Origin: Melampsora larici-populina 98AG31
Taxonomy: Eukaryota > Basidiomycota > Pucciniomycetes > Pucciniales > Melampsoraceae
Length of the DNA: 64,000 bases
Direction: 5' to 3'
Assembly: GCF_000204055.1 (NCBI RefSeq)
Contig: NW_006768767.1
Location: forward strand, 1,966,498-2,030,497
Below are positions 28,626 to 43,542 of the stretch, piece by piece. Below the pieces are notes generated by a model, which ran no database searches, was not told the origin of the DNA, and saw nothing but the letters and a program-made list of their open reading frames with translations. The first letter of the stretch is position 1. Every line of letters begins with the position of its first letter. Both the position numbers and the translations under genes were made by a program.

Positions 28626-29235
28626 ATAAAAAACATGAATTTCAAGTGATTAAGTGGATATCTACAATGTATATTACAAACTATGACTGTTATATCCAAT
28701 TGTTCAACTCGCCAAAATCCCATTACCATTTAATCATTTCCTCTAATTTAACCTTTGAGATGTTGTCCGAGTGCTTTGCTGAAATTCTATTTGGGTGGTT
28801 TCCTATATCACTTAAGGTGCTCAAGCTGAGCTGGATTGTAACGTGAGCGACATTTGCCCCAATTAAGACGGGTTTTCTAATCCAAATACGGGGTCCGAGG
28901 CCACGAGGCCCATCGGATTTCTTGGGTAACAGACCCGTTGGACCGCTTGCAGGCCACAAATTGATCGCCAGCTGCCCTCATCAATGCCAGGTCGGCAGGC
29001 GGCTTGCAGGCGAGGGGCCGTTTCGACCGTCTGCAGGCGGATTGTAGCTCGCCGCGTGTCGACATCCAGATCGCCTGCTAGCGAGCGCGGCAGGCGGCTT
29101 GCAAGCGGCGTACCTGAGCGCCATCTGGAGACCGCCTGCCCGCGTGCAAGAGCTGACGGCCTTCAGATGGGCTGCCTCGCCCGGCTGTAGGCGAGCGAGA
29201 CGCCTCTGTGGTGTAGGATTTGCTTAATTTCTTAT
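28626..29235. other. CACTA-like 3' sub-terminal region and junction
   Basis: Non-coding. About 28930-29200 is a GC-rich cluster of GGCAGGCGGC, CTTGCAGGCG and GAGCGCCATCTGGAG-type repeats leading to the transposon end at 29213. The 9-bp target site ATTTCTTAT (29227-29235) of the next insertion follows after 13 bp. Confidence 0.6.
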
Positions 29236-29598
29236 GGGGTGGGAGAATTTTACACCGGGTCATTTACACCGACTTGTTCGGTGTAAAACGTCTTTGGTGT
29301 AAAATTCAAAAATCCCCCCCTGTTTTTTGAATTTTACACTTGTTTCAATTTTTTTTGAGTGGTGTAAAAAAAAACAGTGTAAAATTTTCAGTGTAAAAAT
29401 CTGGTACCCGGTTGAGGAATTGATTTTTACACTGCAATTTTTACACCGGATTATCCGGTGTAAAAAAATTCAGTGTAAAAGTCTTGTGCCCCGACATGGT
29501 ATCCATTTTTACACCGGATAGTTTACACCGAACAATTTCGGTGCAAAAACCTCCTGTGCAAAATTCCAAGTGATCACTCTCAAAATTGAATTTTACAC

Positions 29599-30935
29599 CT
29601 TGATGTCTTGACCAGAAAAAAATCTTTACACTGATTTTTCCCGCAGTCAACGCCGCACCATCCAAAGCTACCAGTACATACAGCACTCGATTACCCCAGC
29701 ATTCAATCGCCCTTGACCAACATCAATCATTCAATACATCAATTCAGATTTCTGGTTGTGTCATGTTGCTTATGAATGCTCACTGTTTCATTATGTTGAC
29801 TCGATCCAACAAGAAAAAAGAAATAGATTTCTCAGTCAGCATGCTTTGCAACTAAACAATTAATCTGATACTTGCTCCAAGGGGGTCTTGCTATTGATCG
29901 CAAAGTCATATGAATAATGGTACCGTCAAATCGACTGATGATACGCAGATGATCAAGAAGTACATACATTGACAGCAATCAGTTTGGGGTTCTTGAAGTG
30001 TCCTATCAGGCTTGGATCTAAACGAGTGAGATCTGTGGAAATTATCAAAGGTGATCTGTGTTTCCAATGTCGAGATGAGCTTGAAGACGAAGATGAAATA
30101 ACATGTGCTGAAAACCATGGAAGCTCACTTCGCTGCGGCCCAAAAAGTAAACTGAGTGATAACCTCAATCCTTGTCAAACCACCTTGTCCAACTTTTAAT
30201 AAATCAAGGTCTGCAAACGTTCCAGGTTCGTTGGCCCAAGCTTCGGAAGCGAATTGATTGATTGTGCGTACGCTGAACAGGTAAGCAAGAAGTTAAGTTC
30301 GATTTCTCAGAACTGCAAAAGGTATATCAAGTTTCACTCAACACGCGACTCCACGTATCTGACGCCCCGGCGACATCGTCTCCTATCTGCAATAATCCTG
30401 TTCTTGACAAAGGATCACAATTGACTTGAAACAAATGACAATTGACTTGCGAATTTGGAGAGATGCACTGTTCAAAATCACCAAGTGTCACTATAATCTC
30501 AACTCGGTCACTCGCAGACAGATTGAGGCCGAGGCGACTCGACTCTCTGGTTGTTCTGTTCTAAATCATCCTGAACCAATTCAAAGAAGTCAGTTGCTCA
30601 AAGACAAAGAAGTTAAATACAATATATGAAAAACGCATACCCTGTTTCAAGAAGGTATTAACTGAAGTGTTGATGGCCATCACAAGAGAAATAAAGATGA
30701 GGTTCAAGAGTTGCTTACGGTGTTTGAAGGTCTTACTCTTGAGGAATGATCAATGGAAGTTGTAGTTCAGGTATCAAGTGTGTCAAAGGTGATGTTTGCT
30801 GGTGTTTGATGCATGTTAAAAGATTGATGGATTGGTCATCTTGGTATGTCGGTTCTGTTGTTAATCAGTTTTCTGTCCTAATCAAGTTAGATATATTTGC
30901 CGGTGGGTCCATTAACGTCGAGCACATTCGGTGTA
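29599..30935. other. Middle of element X, possible captured fragment
   Basis: No full gene. An open frame at 29969-30199 includes a Cys-bearing stretch (GDLCFQCRDELEDEDEI...CAENHG...LRCG) that could be a remnant exon of a captured host gene. The next 700 bp hold only short open frames. I cannot identify a source. Confidence 0.3.
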
Positions 30936-31317
30936 CAGCTGTTTTCAAAATTAATGTCATGGTGCGGTTTTTCATTTTCATTTTTCCTCGAAAGCCACAC
31001 CAAATACAGCCAATACAGGCTTGAAAGACCGGAGCGGGGGTTCAAGATTCTATGTAAAACCCGGACCGGTTTCCATCAGGTACATACCCTTACCCATTTC
31101 CGATCCCGCCACATCGATATTTTTCTCGCTCCAACATCCACACCTCTCTTCCATCCATTTCACCTCACCTGTTGACCAATTTTCACTCCACCACACCTCC
31201 TACCCAGCCAAGCCAAGCCAGGCTCACTGGCAAGGTCTGAGGTTTGATATGCTTCACTACCCACATCCATCACAACTCTTCCCTGACACTGACTCGTATG
31301 ATTTTCATTATTCCAGG

Positions 31318-32467
31318 ATGGCTCGAGTTCGAAAGGTCCGAGGCGGAAAGTACGACGCGAGTATCAAAGTCTTAGCCATTCAGCATCTGCGTGAAGGCAA
31401 GACAATCAATCAGGTTCGAGACCTTCTGAAGTCACCAGTTACCCCACGCACAATCTCTAGATGGCACGCGCTGTACCGAAGAACGGCATTGGTTGTGCGT
31501 AATCCTGACGATTACGAGAGGTTGGGACGAAACTTAAGATTATCGGATGAGGACCGCGACTTTATGCTTGAGCTCCTGGATGGCAATCCTGGTCTATACT
31601 TAGATGAGTATCGACATTCAATCTATCGGCAGACTGGAGAATGGATATCCCTCGCAACTATCACCCGTGACCTCAAGATTCGACTGAACCTTACTCTCAA
31701 AAAGGCTCGAACTGTGCACCCCAATCAAAGTGACACAAAGAGGGCTCGATATCTACACGCAGTCGGAGCGTTGACACCCAACATGCTAGTTTTTTTAGGT
31801 AAGTCATCCAGTGACTAAGTTTGATTATACTTGATTCTACTCGAGGTGTCTCAGCTGATTTTTTTATATCCAGACGAGTGCGCCATCCAGGAACGCTTCC
31901 TCAAAAGACAGTTTGGCCGCGCCACCAAAGGACAACGAACCAAGAGAGTCCCATGGAGCCGGGCCGGCAAACGCTACTCACTTTTACCAGCCATCTTCAG
32001 GGGTGGCATCTTGGCACTCGATTGCCAAGAGGGGAGCTACTATCGTCGCGATTTTGAAGGTTTTCTCAAACATCGACTGGTAAGTGGATGTTCAAGTCCT
32101 CACCGGTTGTGGACTACCATGCTGATATGAACTGTCTGATACTGTTCGATAGTTCCCTGTCATGAATCCTTATCCCCTAGCAAATTCTGTGTTGGTCATG
32201 GATAATGCACGTATTCATAAGGGTGGCCGGATCGCGGAGCTTGCTGAAGAAAGAGGAATACGGATAATATACCTGCCCCCATACTCACCTGATCTCAACC
32301 CCATTGAGAAGGCGTTCAGCGTCCTCAAATCTTGGTTTCGACGTACCCAATGCGTCAATGTAGCCCCGAACATAGAGAAAATTGATGTCATCATGGACTC
32401 GGCTTGGAACATTTTCTCGGGTGGTCTTATGCATCGTTTATACAGCGTGTGCGGCTATTGGGTGTAG
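31318..32467 (+). CDS. Tc1/mariner DD34E transposase
   Basis: Cut-and-paste transposase of element Z. Exons 31318-31798, 31874-32079 and 32153-32467 splice in phase to 333 aa. An N-terminal helix-turn-helix (IKVLAIQHLREGKTINQV...TPRTISRWHALY) binds the TIR. The catalytic aspartates lie in VFLDECAIQ (codon split by intron 1) and VMDNARIH, and the glutamate in SPDLNPIEKAF, with 34 residues between the second D and E. All are present, so the gene looks functional. The start is placed at MARVRKVRGG. The frame is open further upstream, and a CAG acceptor just before this ATG could mean an additional 5' exon. Confidence 0.92.
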
Positions 32468-33394
32468 CTATGGTGCTCAAAGAGATTAGATTCCTCCTGG
32501 TGTTTCCCGAGGATCATTTAAATACTCGGTCTTGTTTCTAACCTGTCATATCTACCATCTTGTCGAACAACTTATATACTCGGTCATGTTTCTAACTGTT
32601 CTTATCTATCATCTTGTTGAACAACGGTCTTGGTTGTACCTTATCCTGTCTACAATACTGTCGAGCAAAAGTAATGAGAACATTAACTTTGGTCAAAAAT
32701 GAGAGTAAACGCCAAAGACCGTTAAAGTAGGCATTGATGAACTTTCTCCAGTCATCAATGCAAAGTTATCGCACAAACAAGCAAACAACATCTTGCATTT
32801 GCCTGTGCGAGAAATCTTTTGAGAAACGTTTCTCACCTAAAGAACTCGTTTGTGAGATGGTTTAGGGCATGTCCGAGATGGTTTAGGGCTAGTCTGACCA
32901 TTTGAGAAAATTTTGACATGAACAAGACAAAGAATGACTTGTTCAGTCATCCTTAAGGTTTGACACTGGATTTTTCAAACCGCACACAAAAATCTGAATT
33001 GCCAACATCATTTGGGGGATATCATTTGGGGGATATAACTAGTTATTCTACTTGTGCATGAATGACATTGACAGAGAATAAGAGACAAACAAACTGAGCC
33101 GAACATGTTTAAGCTCAATCAAACATTCAAACAACCGATTGAGCTTGGAGGGTTAAATTTTTTGAAGTACTGGTGCATGTATGACATTGACAGTGATTAA
33201 GAGAGAAACAACGGAACAAGGCATTTTGAATTTTTAAAGCATTTGGGGGAAATCGTGGACTAAAAAACTTGGGTTTTCGCTTAATTGTGTTTTCGCTTAA
33301 TGACATCTATTTGAAGTTTAAGACGAAAGCGGGATACTTAGTCAGCAACATATCTAGAAACTGTCATGAAGGAGTTACACACATGATTGCCACA
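32468..33394. other. Non-coding spacer of element Z
   Basis: Between the convergent ends of the transposase and accessory genes. It has small duplications: two near-copies of a ~40-bp segment around ATGACATTGACAG (about 33060 and 33180), and repeated ATTTGGGGGATAT units (33009-33040). No gene seen. Confidence 0.55.
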
Positions 33395-35621
33395 TTAGAG
33401 AGACTTGAGGTAGTGGTTGTATTTGGGAATCGCCTTAAAAAGGTCCTCTGCTTGAGCGAAGAGGATGCCCATCTTGTGGAAGGCCTCAATAGTGTAAGTT
33501 CCACGGTCCAGCATTCGGATAAAATCGTTTATACCTTCCTTGGCCAAACATTCACGAGTTGTGGCCATATCCAGGCCAATACCTGCAAAGATAAGGAACT
33601 TCTCAAAGTCGATTGAGGTGTCTCGAGGTGGAGGTGATAATCGCTGCGATTGTGCCACCTGGTTAGTCGCCACCTGGTGCCCGCTGTCCATGGCTCGCTC
33701 AGCATAAGGAGGGGCATGGTTTGGGTGGGCAGGGTGCCCGTAATAGTTGTGATGAATGACAGTTGCCCCAGTCGAGACGCCAGCGGATTGTCTTCCCGGA
33801 TTCAAACCTAGCAGAGCGTTCTTCTCTTCCTCGTAATTGCTGACAGGGATCCAGCGGAAACCAGGGCGCTTCATGGGGGGATTGACCTCGTCCACACCAC
33901 GAACTCCATCGGCCTGCAAACAACCAGATAATGGGGATTAGAGCCGAACTTGTAAGCAAAAGGAGTGAAGAAATGGAAAGTGAGAAGATTTTGAGGAATA
34001 ACTTACCCAGTCGTTGGCCCAAGTGCGAATGCGGGCTGTGTTGAGGAGCAAACACTCCCCAGCATCCTTAGGGTTTGGAACCGAAGTGATGTTCTCACCT
34101 GCCTTGAAGTCTTTTTTGAATCGTTGCATCAATGTACGAAGATTGCGTTCACCAGGGCTAAGAATAGCAGACTAAGCAAGAGCAAAATCAGTCAATGCAT
34201 TACTGGCAATGCTGGAATGATATGAAAATGACTCACTCCATCCGATGCAACTGACTCCTCACCTTCCGATGAGACCTCGGAGTCTGGGCCATTTGCGGGA
34301 GTTCCAACCCTAGAAGTCTTGAGGGTGCTAGCGAGAGATCGACGCGCTTCCTCGCTCTTCAAAGGGTTCTCGTGGACAATCCGGAAGCCCATTTTGGAGG
34401 TGGCAGGTGAATGGTCGAAAAGAGAAGGCTTCTTGATAGGCTGTTTATCCCGAGCTTTGAAACCCTTAGAACCGTTAATGAAACCCATGATGGACAGCCC
34501 TCCTTGGGCCCAGGCCTGCTGGAGAAGTTCTGAAACTCCCGGAAGGTGTTTGTTGCAAGAGTTGAAAAGCTTGATTTTGAAAAGCGTGAAATCCATGTCT
34601 TTAGGTTGGAAGGTGATATAGGTAGGCACTTTTGGAGCGTAGTTGTTGTATTTGACCTTGGTAGGTTTGCGTGAGATCGGCCGGGAGCCACCAGGAGGAC
34701 GCTTCTGCTTTTTAGGGTCCGGCTCATCCGGGCACTGAGGTTGAAAAAGATTGAAATAAATTCGAAATCTGCGTTCTTCATCGGGAAGTTCGGCAAGGAT
34801 GTCGGTTGGAGTTGCAGATGTCGAGCTGTTGGTGGAACGAGCTGGGCCCCCAACACCCCTGGGTACGTTCAAATCGATAATCGGCAAGTCTAGAAATCCA
34901 AACATTCAAGATAATCAGCTTTCAATTGGGATTGAAATCAACATGGTTGCAACTCACCATCCTCGTTGTCTTGCTCATCTAATAGAGGTGGCAGTTCTAA
35001 ACAGATAAAGAGTGTCAGCTGATGAGTCGAATGATTTAATAATGCAATATAAAAATCATGAGGATGATGACTCACCATCATCATCAACGACATCAAACGG
35101 ATCAACCCGTCCTAGAAAAGACCAGAGCGTCAGCTGAAGAATCGCTCTTGACAAGTACATAGATAAAACTGACCTTTGCCGTTGTTTACATCAAAGAGAG
35201 GAGAGTCCGGCATGGGCGCACGTCTCTTCACAGGGGAGCTTGGCTCGCTGTTTGAGGTATCCTCAGGTCTTAAGTTATTGAACGAGGTCGAATTATACGA
35301 GGTTGAGGAACCAGCTGAGGGGGTACTAAAGAACGGGCTGATATGAGGGTTGATGCAAGATGTGGAAGAATCGGTCGTACTAGAATCAGGCGTGCCAGCA
35401 GGGGGAAGGCAGGGGGTGGCACGACGTCTCAAGAGCGCGGTCTTTTGATATGAGGGAGGTATGTAGGGTGGTGCTAAAGCAAACGGGTTGGTGTTTTGTG
35501 AAACTGGTGCTAAAGGAAACGGATGGCCATTTGGTGAAACCGTGGGTGTGCTATGCTGGCTGATTGAGTGCCAGTGGCTGGCTGGTGGTAACCTGCACCG
35601 CTCCAATGGCAGAGTAAGCAA
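33395..35621 (-). CDS. Second gene of element Z, C-terminal SAM-like domain
   Basis: Multi-exon minus-strand gene. Upstream exons encode a Pro/Ser-rich region (FALAPPYIPPSYQ; SSPVKRRAPMPDSPLFDV) and then short acidic exons (GRVDPFDVVDDD; LPPLLDEQDNED). The large exon 34890-34230 contains EERRFRIYFNLFQPQCPDEP, YNNYAPKVPTYITF and MDFTLFKIKLFNSCNKHLPG. Further exons give RNLRTLMQRFKKDF (34130) and KRPGFRWIPVSNYEEEKNAL (33880). The C-terminal ~75 aa (DFEKFLIFAGIGLDMATTREC...EGINDFIRML...) look like a SAM domain. The stop is at 33395. The true 5' end may lie under or beyond the assembly gap at 35828. I recognise no catalytic domain. It probably assists transposition through self-association or DNA binding, which is inference. 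Confidence 0.65.
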
Positions 35622-35827
35622 CGGGGCTCATCAGCGAGAACAGAAAATGTGGAGATCACACCTGTGCGTCCCCATATTTTGATCCAGAAGAGCCTGGTGG
35701 CTCCGAGTTCGAATTGCGCGGCTCATGGTGTCAAGGCGGTTATCGGACGGGTTGCTGAAATGATGAGTAGGAAATTGATAGACACAAACATTGATAACCA
35801 GAAAACGATAATTAGAGAAATTGAAAA

Positions 35828-35927
35828 NNNNNNNNNNNNNNNNNNNNNNNNNNNNNNNNNNNNNNNNNNNNNNNNNNNNNNNNNNNNNNNNNNNNNNNNN
35901 NNNNNNNNNNNNNNNNNNNNNNNNNNN
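35828..35927. other. Assembly gap (100 N)
   Basis: A run of 100 undetermined bases, the conventional length for a gap of unknown size. Any sequence of the Z accessory gene promoter or first exon here is missing. Confidence 0.98.
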
Positions 35928-37538
35928 AGTTTTCTGTTGACCATCTGAACAGTGGGGTTCTTGGACAGGATGACGGATGAGCGAATTTTTAGTTTTTTTG
36001 GCTCGAGTCCGGTGGTAAGTTGAGACGCTGAGCAGCTTTTTATGGTGTTCAAGACGGCGGTCAAGTTGTGGTTGATAAAGATGTGGACCATAAGAGGTGT
36101 GAAGCGTAATCATCACATGGAGCCGAGGCGTCAAGCGATGACATTCGAGCCATGCCGTTGTGGGTTGTTTGGATCCGTGGACGAAAGGACGAGCGAATCC
36201 AGACTTCGGTATCCCAAGCGGTGGTTGAGTCGAGTGGATCAGTTGAAAGGATGACCGATATGGAGGAATTCCGACCGGCTTTGGTGACCTGACAAGGAGT
36301 TGAGGCGTTGAAAATTCATTTCGACCCATTCCGCCTTTGTTTGGTTCGGTAAAGATTGTAAGATTAGTCGTCTAGCCACACCACCGGAGGTTGAGTCGAG
36401 TGGACATATGTTGTTTTTTGGGGTGATGAAGGAAAGGTCGTGAGACGTTCTGGTGGGTTATTGAACGGTGGGTCCAAACAAATAGACCGTCTATCGAATC
36501 GGGTCGAGGTCAAAGGCTACCCACGGGGCCCACCCGGCGCCTCTGCCCCTCACCTGTATTGGCTGTATTTGGTGTGGCTTTCGAGGAAAAATGAAAATGA
36601 AAAACCGCACCATGACATTAATTTTGAAAACAGCTGTAAATCATTTTGTTGCTCAGTGTAAAATTCAATTTTGAGAGTGATCACTTGGAATTTTGCACAG
36701 GAGGTTTTTGCACCGAAATTGTTCGGTGTAAACTATCCGGTGTAAAAATGGATACCATGTTGGGGCACAAGACTTTTACACTGAATTTTTTTACACCGGA
36801 TAATCCGGTGTAAAAATTGCAGTGTAAAAATCAATTCCTCAACCGGGTACCAGATTTTTACACTGAAAATTTTACACTGTTTTTTTTTTACACCGCTCAA
36901 AAAAAATCGAAACAAGTGTAAAATTCAAAAAACGGGGGGGGATTTAAGCTTAACTAAGCCCCTCTTCCGCGGCCACGTCCGCGACCTCGAAGAGGGGCTT
37001 ACCGCGGACTCGCGATTTTTCGCGGAGGACTTCCAAGAATTAAGTACTGTTATGTACTTCTTTCAACTTTCCCTCAACACCTCTGGCCAGAAAGTGCCAG
37101 CCTTCTGATATGTTGTTCTCAAAGCTTTTGTACATATTTTGATACCCCACACTTGTGCTTTACTCGGCGGAACGGTTTCCATGTTGGGTGGTAAGCATCA
37201 TTGGATGTGCTTGTGTATGTTCCAGTCAAATACCCTGGAAAATACCCCGGAATGATTTTTTGGAACAAAACCCCAAATTTGTGGGCAAAGCCTCCTTGTG
37301 TTTTGTCCTTGGTTTTAGCTCGGTTTTGTATGGGATGGCTGAGCACGGTGAGGTTAAGTACGCGTTCTTGTGGTTACGCGCTTTTGTGGTACACAAAAAT
37401 TTTGAACCACAAAATGGACACAAAAATTTTGTTCAAAATTTGGGAAGGGATTCTGGCGCGCGGCCATTCCCAAAACTACAGAGTGACCGCTATCAAAAAT
37501 TGCAGCCTCAAGAAATCACAAAGAGCCAGCGACCTCCC

Positions 37539-40327
37539 ATGGAGCAAGAAACCAAAATCCGCCAGCGTCCCTTCATCGAGTCCATTGCTGTGCAGTTATG
37601 TTCTACTGCAAAAAGTCAGCAGACCTTTGCTAAAGAGGTATTTTACTCTTTTTTATGTGCGGATAACCCCGTTTTAAAAGAAAGTCGACGTTATTGGGGT
37701 ATCGAAAGAGGTTTGAACTCCACTTTCCAAATTGTGCGTGCAATCAAGGACCTGACTCAAAATAGTGAGGAAGGCCGGGCTGCATGGTGCAAGTTTATTT
37801 TGAGCGAGGTGAGTGTTCTTCTTTCTTAACAGTGGTATACAAGTTAATGATAATGGTTCTCATAGGCGCAAGAAGAAATTCAACAAGAAATTATGTCCAA
37901 ACCTCGATGTTTTTATAGTTCACAAAAAATCACAAACGAGTTCTTTGAGCTAGGTCAATTACACGCGCGTGAAGATAAATTAAAGGCCTCAATGCCATTT
38001 TTGTGGAATCTGATGTATCATCAGCTATCGCTTAGATCAAATAATCGTGCGGCTCTTATGACGCCTGCTCACCGCAGCAACGTTTGGGACACGTTGGAAG
38101 ACGAACATTCAGAACATGATCCAGATGCTGAAACCGGCCTGGCGACTGAAACTGTTGGCGAGAGGGAAGCCCGACATGACGAGGAAATGCTTTATCTTCC
38201 AGAAGACCAAACTAAGGCAGAAAGAGACCGAGCAAATCTGGCAAGTACCACACTTACTTGCTTTACAAAGATTGCGGTTACTCAACTGACTTGATATAAC
38301 TGTTTTAGGTTGCAACCACCATATGTGGCATGGTCTCGTACATGTCTAATTATAGAGATAATGCGCTTCAGTTGCACAACACGTTGACTTTCATTGCAAC
38401 TGGAGTGTCTGATAGAGTTTTTCAATATTTGAATACTTTAGGCCTGTCAAGTTCTCGAGATACAGCTTTACGAACTTTAAATCATCTCAAAAGCAAGCAA
38501 GAAGCCTCACTGCGAGCACTTATGGCCCAGCCTTATAGTATATGCCCAATAATCTGCATCGATAACTTTGATATCTTACAAAGAGTTCACAATACCCGAG
38601 TAGAGACTGTGTCGCATCTCTTTCATGGCACATGGGGTTATATTCAGTTTTTACCTAAATACCTAGATAAAGATATCTCGAAAGAAAGTCCGAGCACTCA
38701 CCTTCAAAACTACCATCAATCCTTGGCTGAAGCTCGGAATTCCCCGGTCCGGTTGGACACTTTCAGGGAAAAGGCAAGTGATATGAACCAGTGGGAGGCG
38801 ACTTTAAAAAGTCAGCTAGCCACGGTCATGTACAAATACATTCTCAAAGCTGGAACGACTCCCTCACCCAAAATTGCTACAAGGCCACCTCCGGTAGACC
38901 AGATTCCTGTAGATGATCGCCATTTGTTTCTGATGAGCCTAATGGACGCGGCCGACAACTCAGCAGATGGGGTTGCACAAGTTTTTGACGAAATCGCTTC
39001 TCAATGCGGGCTGACGCTCGAAGAAATGTCAAAATGGATCAGGATCGTTCAAGGTGACCTTGGCACTTGTCACAATATCGAAAGTCTTCGAAAGAAGCGT
39101 ACTCCCGCCGGAACTGACATAGGAGGCCTTACCAGTGTGCTTACTATCCCTGGGGTTTCCCATATTATGTGGAACCTGGCACAAGGGATCCTATCGCATC
39201 ATTGGGGTGATACACGTGACTCTAAGGACACTGGCGCGTGGAAGGCATGGCAGTCTTTGGGCGGATTACAAGGAGCTAATGCTAAACTGCCGTCGAGCAT
39301 GGATTTTGGAACTGTTATGAAAGCGCTCCACTCGGTTCACTGCGCAACTTTGGTGTCGTGTTTAAGGTGAGTCCACCTTGATTGCATCCCGATCCCAAGT
39401 TAGAACCTGATCTTACGACATGTTTTTAAACATGATCTAGGCACACTATGTCAAAATACGAGACTCCTCCGGACCTAGGCAAGGAGGGTGCGGCCCAAGA
39501 CCTAATAGATAGATGTTACAAAGAATTTTGCACCTCGGATTCTTTGAGAGCGTGTCATAAGATAGGGGACAATGTCGGCTATAATTTAAGGCTTCGGATA
39601 CGTGATTTTGCGACTGTGGTGGAAGCTGATGATGCGACACACGCAGGTGATATTGGCAGGCTAATGCTGATGTGGAAACGATGGTCAATAATGGCTCATG
39701 GGTTAAAGGGCTTGCCTCGATATGCATTGCATCTGACTCGCTTTCTTGTGCTTGTGGAGCAGGACCTACCTCCTAATTTGGCCAAACTAATACTGCATAG
39801 TTTGCTTATTCCATCAGGTCAACGCCCAGGTCATTTTGTAGGAAATGATCTCTGGCTTGAACACCAAAACTTTTGGCTCAAACACCATTTCAATCAAACA
39901 GTTAGTCTTTTTTTTTCGGGGTTTTGATTAACACATCGATTAATCATGTGATTATGTAGAGTAACGGAACGGATATTGAAAAGCTGATCGCTATTTCAAT
40001 TAACATTACATTTGTGTGTGCAAGAGATTTTTAATAAACATCTTGATTCAAATCGATTAATGAAACATTGAAACTTGTTCCTAGCTACGACAACTGATTC
40101 AACAATTAAAAATCCGGAGCGGACTGAAACCTGTGTTTCAAAACCACTACCATAACCTTTCAGAACAAACCCTCGCTAACTTTATCCGCTCTTGGAATTA
40201 TCAATATGTCACTTCCAAAAACTCGACTGTCAAAAGTCAATTTACCGATACGGTCTTGACCGGAACAAATGTATTACAAGACAACTTTTTGAAAGACCGG
40301 AAAAAGAATGAAGTATCTCGATATTGA
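37539..40327 (+). CDS. DUF6589-like protein, probable transposase of element Y
   Basis: Exons 37539-37808, 37866-38240, 38309-39366, 39441-39900 and 40085-40327 splice in phase to 801 aa. The second intron uses a GC donor (GCAAGT). The protein starts MEQETKIRQRPFIESIAVQL. The central region contains ICPIICIDNFDILQRVHNTR, where the IDNFD block resembles the acidic core of the DUF6589 family. The C-terminal part contains GNDLWLEHQNFWLKHHF, with a conserved-looking Glu. DUF6589 proteins are abundant, multicopy and poorly characterised in basidiomycetes. An RNase H-like transposase fold would fit D and E at these places, but that is inference. Its position as the only non-helicase gene between TIRs with a clean target duplication makes it the best transposase candidate. 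Confidence 0.8.
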
Positions 40328-40402
40328 TGGGGTTGTTTGGGTGACACGGTGGTTGATGCCGAAGGCAATCTTGAAGACATCCACCCCGAAAGTCAGGTTG
40401 AG

Positions 40403-42937
40403 CTAAACTGCGGTGTTCCTTTGTTTGGCTGATTTGCCCTTCTTACCGACATATGGGGGTGGTTTTCTCTTGGTCGACTTAGGACCAGTGATTCCTGAAG
40501 TCGTAGGGTCTACCTGCAATAAAGTAGTTAATTTCATGACAGGGTTAGATCACATGAACCAAAGTGTTACAAAAGACATATATGATAATTAGAAGATAAA
40601 GTAATGAAACCATACCACTTTGTCCTTTTCGCTCACATCTTTTGCCTTAGTGAAATTGGAGGCACTTTTTTGCTTCGCTTTGGTCTTTGCTTCGTTGTAC
40701 ATGATCATCTCTTCTTCCGAAGGGTGCAACACTGCAATCGAATCCGTGCTTGCCTTCCATTTGCGAATGTCTTGATGTATTGATGTGTATGTATTTGGAA
40801 GAGGTTCACTACCAAACACATCATCCAAATGCATTCCGTCTAAAACAAGGTCGTAGTTGATGCACAGGCTCCAAATTTTGTTGGGTGAGAACAGGTCATC
40901 GAGAGTGTAGAATGAACCCTTAGGATATTCTAAATTAAAAATTGACATCAGATTTGCTTGAATTCGCAGGAATAATCGAATCCAGCGTATATCTTGACGT
41001 AGAGGATGGTCATCGTCTATGGGTCTCAATGTGGTTTGAATCCCACTGTCCTGACAAACGAGATCTTCTGAGTCAACTTTGAAGTCGGGTTGTCCAGGTG
41101 GCACGTCCTGCTGGAGGACCAACTTGGTGAAATTCGATTGAGTCAAGATTTTCTGTTGAGCCAGGAAAAAATTTGCAGCATTTGAATCACAGTTCGAGCA
41201 GCGGCACGGTGCCATATTGGCCTCGGCCTGCCGTCAAGTTTCACTCGTCACGGCTTGGTCATTTTTCGATACCGGTATGTAGTTACACCTACAACTCATC
41301 AAGTTATTTGACGAAAGGAGTCAGCATCAGCACGGACCTGATAAACCGAATGTGAAAAGCATATCACTCACCGTAGTAGGACCTCAAAAGCCACCCGTAA
41401 GCATACCTCAGTGGTAGACATAGCAAGCATATGATGATCGTGGTCTTGCAGACTCTGATGTGGCAAAACCAAAAGCGAATCCTTGTCAGTCTGCGACAAT
41501 TGATTGACTATCAAAAAAGCCACAGCTGGTCGCCCGTCTCGACCGCCTCGACCGGCCATTTGCAGCACCTCGAGCGGATCCAGCTGGCCCATAATAATCA
41601 CCCTTCTCACACGTGTCCAGTTTTGGCCAAGGCCAAGAGCGTTAGTACAGGTCATTACTGAGAAAACCCCCTTTCCAAAATCCTGCGCTCGGCGAATCTT
41701 ATCAATGGGACAGGTTGAGGCATGATAACGGCAAACTGAGGTACTCAAGCCATTGCTCGAATCGATTTGGTTTTGGCGGGCTGAATTAATTGCCTTAAGG
41801 GCTAAGTAGGTGTCGTTTTGTGTATGACAGTACACAAGAGTGGGTACAAGCTCGGAATCAGTCACGTTGGTTTTAGGTGCAAAGAATTTCTTGAGCAAGT
41901 CCATTGAAGAACATCCGTGTCTGAGGGTGACCCGGATGAAACAGATCTCTGGTCGTACTAGTTCGCTTCGATGAATGTCAATGCTATCTCTGGTGATTTT
42001 GAGACTTGCAACAATTTGGTCGAAGTTGCAAGGAGGACAAGTTGCTGACATAAGTAGAGTTGGTACTGCTTCTGTGGCTAGAAACCGCTCCACTAGGTTC
42101 CCGTATGAAGGCCGAAAAGCGGTGCAATCTTGCGGGATCTGAAAACATCGGTAATTTTTGATTCTGCCCGACAAGGCAAGGCCCCAACAGTAGATGAGGT
42201 GAGCCTCATCTACGACCTTGAGCACCAAACGGTTACGGAATCCCTTGGAAAAATAGAGACGTTCGAATTGAGAGTTATTCAAGAAAATTTCTGGCGACTA
42301 TGTTAAGCACATGTCCGGTCAGCTCAGGAATGATTCAAAAACAATCGAGATCAATTTCAGGGCTTACCACATAAATAAATTGGTATTTTCCTGCAAGAAT
42401 CTCTTTATACACAGCTTTCGTGAAAGACGCCCGTGTCAGGTTGATAGCACTCAGACCATTTCTAGCCTTTTCTTCAACCTGTCCAAATGCCCGATAAATA
42501 GTGAGTGAAAATGATTATAGAACATCAAACAGAGACACATTTGAGAAACTTACTTGATTATCTCCAAGCGCGTCTAAAGGATTCAAAGTCAAGATGATAG
42601 GCGCACATGCTTTGGTGAACATTAGATAGAATAATTCCGGTATTCGAGACTTGCCATACCCGGTACTCGCGATGAGAAAAACATCCTTTTTTCGAACGAG
42701 ACTCATAGTCGAGTCGACTTGCAAGGCTCGAGCAATCATTTTGAATATGTTGTAAAATAAGTCTCGTATCACTTTTCGTTGTTCTTCATCGTCATCCTTG
42801 AGCAATGACTTTGAGATTGTTGGCCGGAACTCTTGAGGGTCAGTTTTGGTGGCTGCTGGTGCTGCGGCTGGGGTTCTTGGGGTTCTGCAAACATCAGGCA
42901 AAGGCGGAATAATAGCACTCCGAGAGCGAGTAAGCAT
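40403..42937 (-). CDS. RecQ-family DNA helicase carried by element Y
   Basis: Superfamily 2 helicase on the minus strand. Exon 1 (42937-42554) holds motif I, FLIASTGYGKSRIPELF. Exon 2 is 42478-42368. The large exon from 42297 holds motif II VVDEAHLIYCWG, FRPSYGNL, motif III LLMSATCPP, the helicase C domain with VYCHTQND, and motif VI QMAGRGGRDGRP. All ATPase motifs are intact, and the FRPSYGNL block is a RecQ hallmark. About 20 residues between WG and FRPSYGNL may be a retained intron. A C-terminal region has a CRCSNC cluster (about 41205) that could bind zinc, and a Lys-rich tail ending at 40403. It ends 75 bp from the stop of the DUF6589-like gene, tail to tail. A role in unwinding transposon ends or repairing gaps is inferred. 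Confidence 0.88.
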
Positions 42938-43542
42938 GACGTAGTTAGTTGGAGTGCAAGTGAATGCGCATCGATGATCACGGTGGCATCTTATAAGTTA
43001 TGTACGGCAGACGCGTCACCCCCCTAACCCTTACTGCTAAGGATTACTGCCATTAGGTCATAATACTTTTATGTCTTATGACAGTTTCCACCCAGGATAA
43101 GGATTTGTCCGGATTCGCCCGAGGTCAAATCGGTCAAATCAGATTGATGGCCTGTACACCCGTTCTTAGGCTGTTACAGGAAGACATAGGGACCATATTT
43201 AGTCATGCCTCCCAAATATGCAAAACAAGTGTGTTTCTGATGAAAGTAGTACCAACTTATGTAGACAAATGTAGAGAACAAGACACGAGAAACATGGAAA
43301 TTTTTGTGGAGAGGTTTTGAGGTGAAGTTGAAGAAAGTACATAACGGTACTTAATTCTTGGAAGTCCTCCGCCAAAAATCGCGAGTCCGCGATAAGCCCC
43401 TCTTCGAGGTCGCGGACGTGGCCGCGGAAGAGGGGCTTAGTTAAGCTTAGGGGGGATTTTTGAATTTTACACCGAAGACGTTTTACACCAAACAAGTCGG
43501 TGTAAATGACCCGGTGTAAAATTCCACCTCCCCATTTCTTAT

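Follow-up and report, generated by a model that had tools for sequence, protein, structure and literature searches.

Which kind of mobile element pairs a gene of the DUF6589 family with a RecQ-type helicase gene, and what would the two proteins do in it? The question is raised by a 64,000-nucleotide stretch of the genome of the fungus Melampsora larici-populina 98AG31 (assembly GCF_000204055.1, contig NW_006768767.1, positions 1,966,498 to 2,030,497, forward strand), referred to here as the window. Positions 36945-43449 of the window hold a 6505-bp element, unstranded, which consists of inverted ends, a target duplication and two convergent genes. The element was read, with a probability of about 0.87, as an AcademH-type DNA transposon that looks autonomous, with the DUF6589 protein as DDE transposase and the helicase used in the transposition cycle. 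The observations behind this reading are paired ends, a 9-bp duplication, a gene pair under selection, near-identical copies elsewhere in the genome and short gene-less copies with the same ends.

The element was delimited by its terminal inverted repeats, its target duplication and two empty sites. The left repeat occupies 36945-37145 (plus strand) and the right repeat 43249-43449 (minus strand), and both arms start with TAAGCTTAACTAAGCCCCTC. Arm pairing is 85% over the whole 201 nt and 94.3% in the first 140 nt. An earlier reading of the window made from its letters (the sequence-only reading) had put the repeats at about 145 bp, which is the well-conserved portion. The exact 9-bp duplication seen in that reading, GGGGGGATT, is identical at 36936-36944 and 43450-43458 (plus strand in both cases). 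The element is inserted into a host transposon that has inverted repeats of its own, within the right-hand arm. The other arm of the host transposon (29234-29598, minus strand) is unbroken over the insertion point and has one copy of the target. Alignment of this arm to the joined flanks gave 356 identical columns out of 366, with 9 mismatches and a single 1-nt gap away from the junction. A related arm on contig C41 is likewise continuous with a single target copy, and is the second empty site. The two arms are direct evidence that the element inserted and created the 9-bp duplication.

The 98.3-Mb assembly (243 contigs) was searched for further copies. The terminal pattern YAARCTTAACTAAGYCCCTC occurred 193 times compared to 0 times for the reversed control. 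Twenty-four copies including that of the window were examined; these were selected through their ends or exons and are not a random sample. Both ends were located in 20 of them. With a short relative nested in a copy on contig C23 this gave 21 two-ended copies, including two diverged families (C45 and C16) and short copies of 168-680 bp. An exact 9-bp duplication flanked 20 of the 21 and, together with the two empty sites, this shows that the duplication is not due to chance. The sequence-only reading had proposed a single element bearing both genes and a search for others like it. Many copies with both genes were found between related ends with 9-bp duplications, in addition to the two empty sites.

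The copies in the window and on C8 and C23 are approximately 99% identical to each other, as are those on C57 and C50 and a second copy on C23. These near-identical copies occupy different sites with different duplications, indicating recent movement. The element is a real, recently mobile DNA transposon. Five short copies, at L024:541-1220, L025:548-1227, L026:569-1175, L027:497-1176 and L028:568-735, share these ends and are each flanked by an exact 9-bp duplication. At 168-680 bp they have no room for either gene, and they likely moved in trans. The short relative mentioned above has related ends (CAAACTTAACAAAGTCCCTC) and lies at L009:1623-2195, within a 12-kb copy on C23, with an exact 9-bp duplication of its own. 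A 4.1-kb copy on C38 is mostly N, so its length carries little meaning.

The pairing of the two genes was examined across the genome. Searches with exon 3 of the DUF6589 gene and with a helicase exon returned at least 118 and at least 131 pieces, respectively; these counts are minimum figures, and in a few cases two pieces come from one gene. A helicase piece was present within 10 kb of 102 of the 118 DUF6589 pieces, where approximately 3.4 would be expected under uniform placement. The orientation was tail-to-tail in 100 of these 102 pairs. In the reverse direction 123 of the 131 helicase pieces had a DUF6589 piece within 10 kb (106 with exon 3 and a further 17 with exon 4). The ratio of nonsynonymous to synonymous substitution rates (dN/dS) was computed on one main exon per gene. 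Values for the DUF6589 and helicase genes were 0.13 and 0.12 against the copy on C13, and 0.07 and 0.10 against the copy on C57. These show that both genes are under purifying selection at moderate divergence. Protein distances of the two genes correlated at 0.93 over 13 loci, a value reached in 0 of 2000 permutations; each locus was represented by one piece of each gene and some loci were near-identical to one another. The two genes diverge in parallel.

The probable transposase gene runs from 37539 to 40327 on the plus strand and the helicase gene from 42937 to 40393 on the minus strand. The convergent arrangement reported earlier was upheld and start and stop codons were verified. Splice models of both genes were built from sequence alone and several introns are uncertain. 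The model of the DUF6589 gene encodes 813 amino acids, with introns at 37809-37865, 38277-38308, 39367-39440 and 39901-40084, the second and last being uncertain. It differs from the 801 amino acids first given for this protein, a length that is still possible. The proposed DUF6589-like identity was confirmed by a Pfam match to PF20231 (E 6.9e-61), the sole domain above cut-off. In a Pfam scan to E 1, in which filters discard most matches above about 0.1, the only other match was a sub-threshold CARD. The protein is thus a clear member of PF20231, a family without assigned function in Pfam, located here in a mobile element. Protein-database searches with it found 1 and 6 proteins (approximately 8000 word-sharing candidates scored each).

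As the sequence-only reading had suggested, the DUF6589 protein is the transposase candidate, being the only one within the element and having an invariant D, D and E. Of the three, D315 is the second D of the motif ICIDNFD, D477 belongs to GDLG and E720 to WLEHQN. Both D residues were unchanged in all 16 of the distinct fetched loci compared and the E in all 24; the loci compared were mostly the best-matching ones. The motifs ICIDNFD and WLEHQN had both been singled out beforehand, and one invariant D and the E fall in them. The first D of ICIDNFD varies and is E in L030. Many further residues are also invariant among the compared loci, so the conservation of the three is suggestive and no proof. 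It fits a DDE transposase, which the protein probably is.

The helicase gene was modelled as 712 amino acids with introns at 42553-42479, 42367-42298, 41382-41228 and 40615-40510, the last two of which are uncertain. Pfam matches were DEAD (1.8e-9) and Helicase_C (7.2e-8). The best NCBIfam match was recQ_fam TIGR00614 (E 1.4e-25), with a score of 90 bits, which is under the curated cut-off of that model (219.8). FRPSYGNL, cited earlier as the RecQ block, is present in the translation. The RecQ-specific zinc-binding and RQC domains were not found by Pfam. Among the 120 relatives listed the closest was a Melampsora americana protein (P0002; 57% identity over 84%). Next came other Melampsora proteins and many from Puccinia, of which some carry the annotation sgs1. 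These relatives indicate a rust fungus as host. P0002 matched 36 sequences of solved structures, all named RecQ, WRN, BLM, Q1, Q4, Q5 or plain ATP-dependent DNA helicase. Together with the recQ_fam match this places the protein in relation to the RecQ family across the helicase core. Matches of P0002 in an anti-phage library (mostly DpdF, also PsyrT) were read as common helicase-core similarity. One helicase-related piece (C19:651995-652585) lies inside an open frame of 3355 residues, which may only reflect masked sequence.

Terminal inverted repeats belong to the definition of AcademH, and Academ elements have been reported from the rust Puccinia graminis. AcademH is a lineage of the Academ superfamily, and papers that cite its description attribute it to Kojima (2020, Mob DNA 11:15). 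By published description the element matches AcademH in its ends, its 9-bp duplication, its RecQ helicase and its fungal host. Each AcademH feature that could be followed to an end, namely duplication length, helicase and terminal inverted repeats, was found here. In the portions of the sources cited here, AcademH elements have duplications of 9 or 10 bp and AcademX elements, of the same superfamily, 3 or 4 bp, a difference attributed to a helicase in the former and a nuclease in its place in the latter (PMC10045372). AcademH is described from Basidiomycota, Ascomycota and Mucoromycota, in low copy number (PMC10799480), and Academ is counted among the DDD/E superfamilies (PMC9587614). The helicase had at first been taken for an unusual cargo. 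This was not sustained, as RecQ is already recorded in Academ (PMC3627910), in the KolobokH transposons of fungi (PMC9587614) and in fungal Academ copies, which carry DEAD/DEAH and recQ_fam domains and frequently appear in annotations as host genes (PMC6416283).

Other origins of the element were weighed against AcademH. The likeness to Academ was drawn from descriptions and not from transposase sequence, and neither DUF6589 nor PF20231, as a name, leads to a biology paper in the literature searched. Both points would suit a separate new superfamily outside Academ, with helicase type and duplication length shared by convergence. This is unlikely, given the agreement with AcademH in type of helicase, length of the duplication and fungal host, and given the report of Academ from a rust. 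Mutator-like elements usually have long inverted ends and 9-bp duplications, both of which are present here, and such an element could have acquired a helicase. It is a quite improbable source, however: no Mutator-like transposase domain appeared in the Pfam scan to E 1, within the filter limit given above, and the helicase stays paired with DUF6589 in very diverged copies.

A Kolobok origin was given very little weight. The target duplication of Kolobok elements is TTAA, whereas the duplications here are 9 bp without TTAA, and DUF6589 is the only domain above the Pfam cut-off in the 813-aa protein. KolobokH, so far known only from fungi, does resemble the element as a DNA transposon carrying a RecQ helicase, but it has this helicase downstream of the transposase domain in the part of the source cited (PMC9587614), and here the helicase is a separate convergent gene on the opposite strand. 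Nested transposons are present in the region, and two unrelated genes might have been trapped between repeats by chance or nesting. This is hardly credible and is refuted by the genome-wide pairing of the genes; their orientation and parallel divergence also argue against it.

A number of observations weigh against the AcademH reading, in addition to its reliance on descriptions. AcademH is called low-copy in fungi in the portion of PMC10799480 cited, compared to the 118 or more DUF6589 exon pieces here. One end or none was located in 4 of the 24 examined copies (L018, L023, L030 and L032), the duplication of the copy on C7 has 2 mismatches, and no excision event was observed. No helicase piece was found within 10 kb of 16 of the 118 DUF6589 pieces, and 8 of the 131 helicase pieces had no DUF6589 piece (exon 3 or 4) within that distance. 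The two genes are mostly together, and the outcome named beforehand as telling against a single element, genes occurring apart and never between these ends, did not arise. Very few changes separate the closest copies, and dN/dS against them was approximately 2 or undefined; against the copies on C28, C9 and C27 synonymous sites were saturated and no ratio was obtainable. A predicted structure of DUF6589 exon 3 from 7 sequences had a predicted local distance difference test score (pLDDT) of 36 and gave no usable fold. No relative was found when the DUF6589 profile was compared to solved structures up to E 1.

If the element is an AcademH transposon, the DUF6589 protein, as a DDE transposase using D315, D477 and E720, would bind the element ends. 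It would then cut the ends and join them to target DNA at nicks 9 nt apart. The short copies without genes would move in trans. More tentatively than for the transposase, the helicase is proposed to be required in the cycle instead of being a passenger, most likely for opening or processing the gapped product or the ends.

The region around the element contains further transposons. The host transposon (29235-43534) has inverted arms carrying repeated TTTACACCGG-like motifs, has the termini TGGGG..CCCCA and is flanked by an apparent 7-bp duplication, TTTCTTA. Elements of the hAT type with 7-bp duplications occur in Puccinia, according to the part of the source cited (PMC12730594). A further nested element (30934-36638) has identical inverted arms of 86 nt and TA at each end. 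Its open reading frame at 30955-31815 gave weak homeodomain-like helix-turn-helix matches, all under the Pfam cut-off, and this element may be related to Tc1/mariner. Positions 35828-35927 of the window are a run of N.

The kind of element described here is already known. What is new is the link to DUF6589, tested in one genome. DUF6589 was named in no paper of the literature searched, and PF20231 turned up only in one unrelated optics paper. The link to Academ is thus unstated there under those names and may be known under others. Whether all DUF6589 proteins form the AcademH transposase family, as fungal transposases of RecQ-carrying elements or their descendants with the helicase as an obligate partner, was judged an even chance. 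The element suggests a likely function for the uncharacterised DUF6589 family. A caution follows for annotation, where transposon helicases are recorded as host genes, such as the Puccinia relatives labelled sgs1. Loci that pair transposase and helicase are available in large number in this one genome. The role of RecQ in DNA transposition may be approached by comparison, as the helicase is present at many loci and apparently missing from a few with DUF6589.
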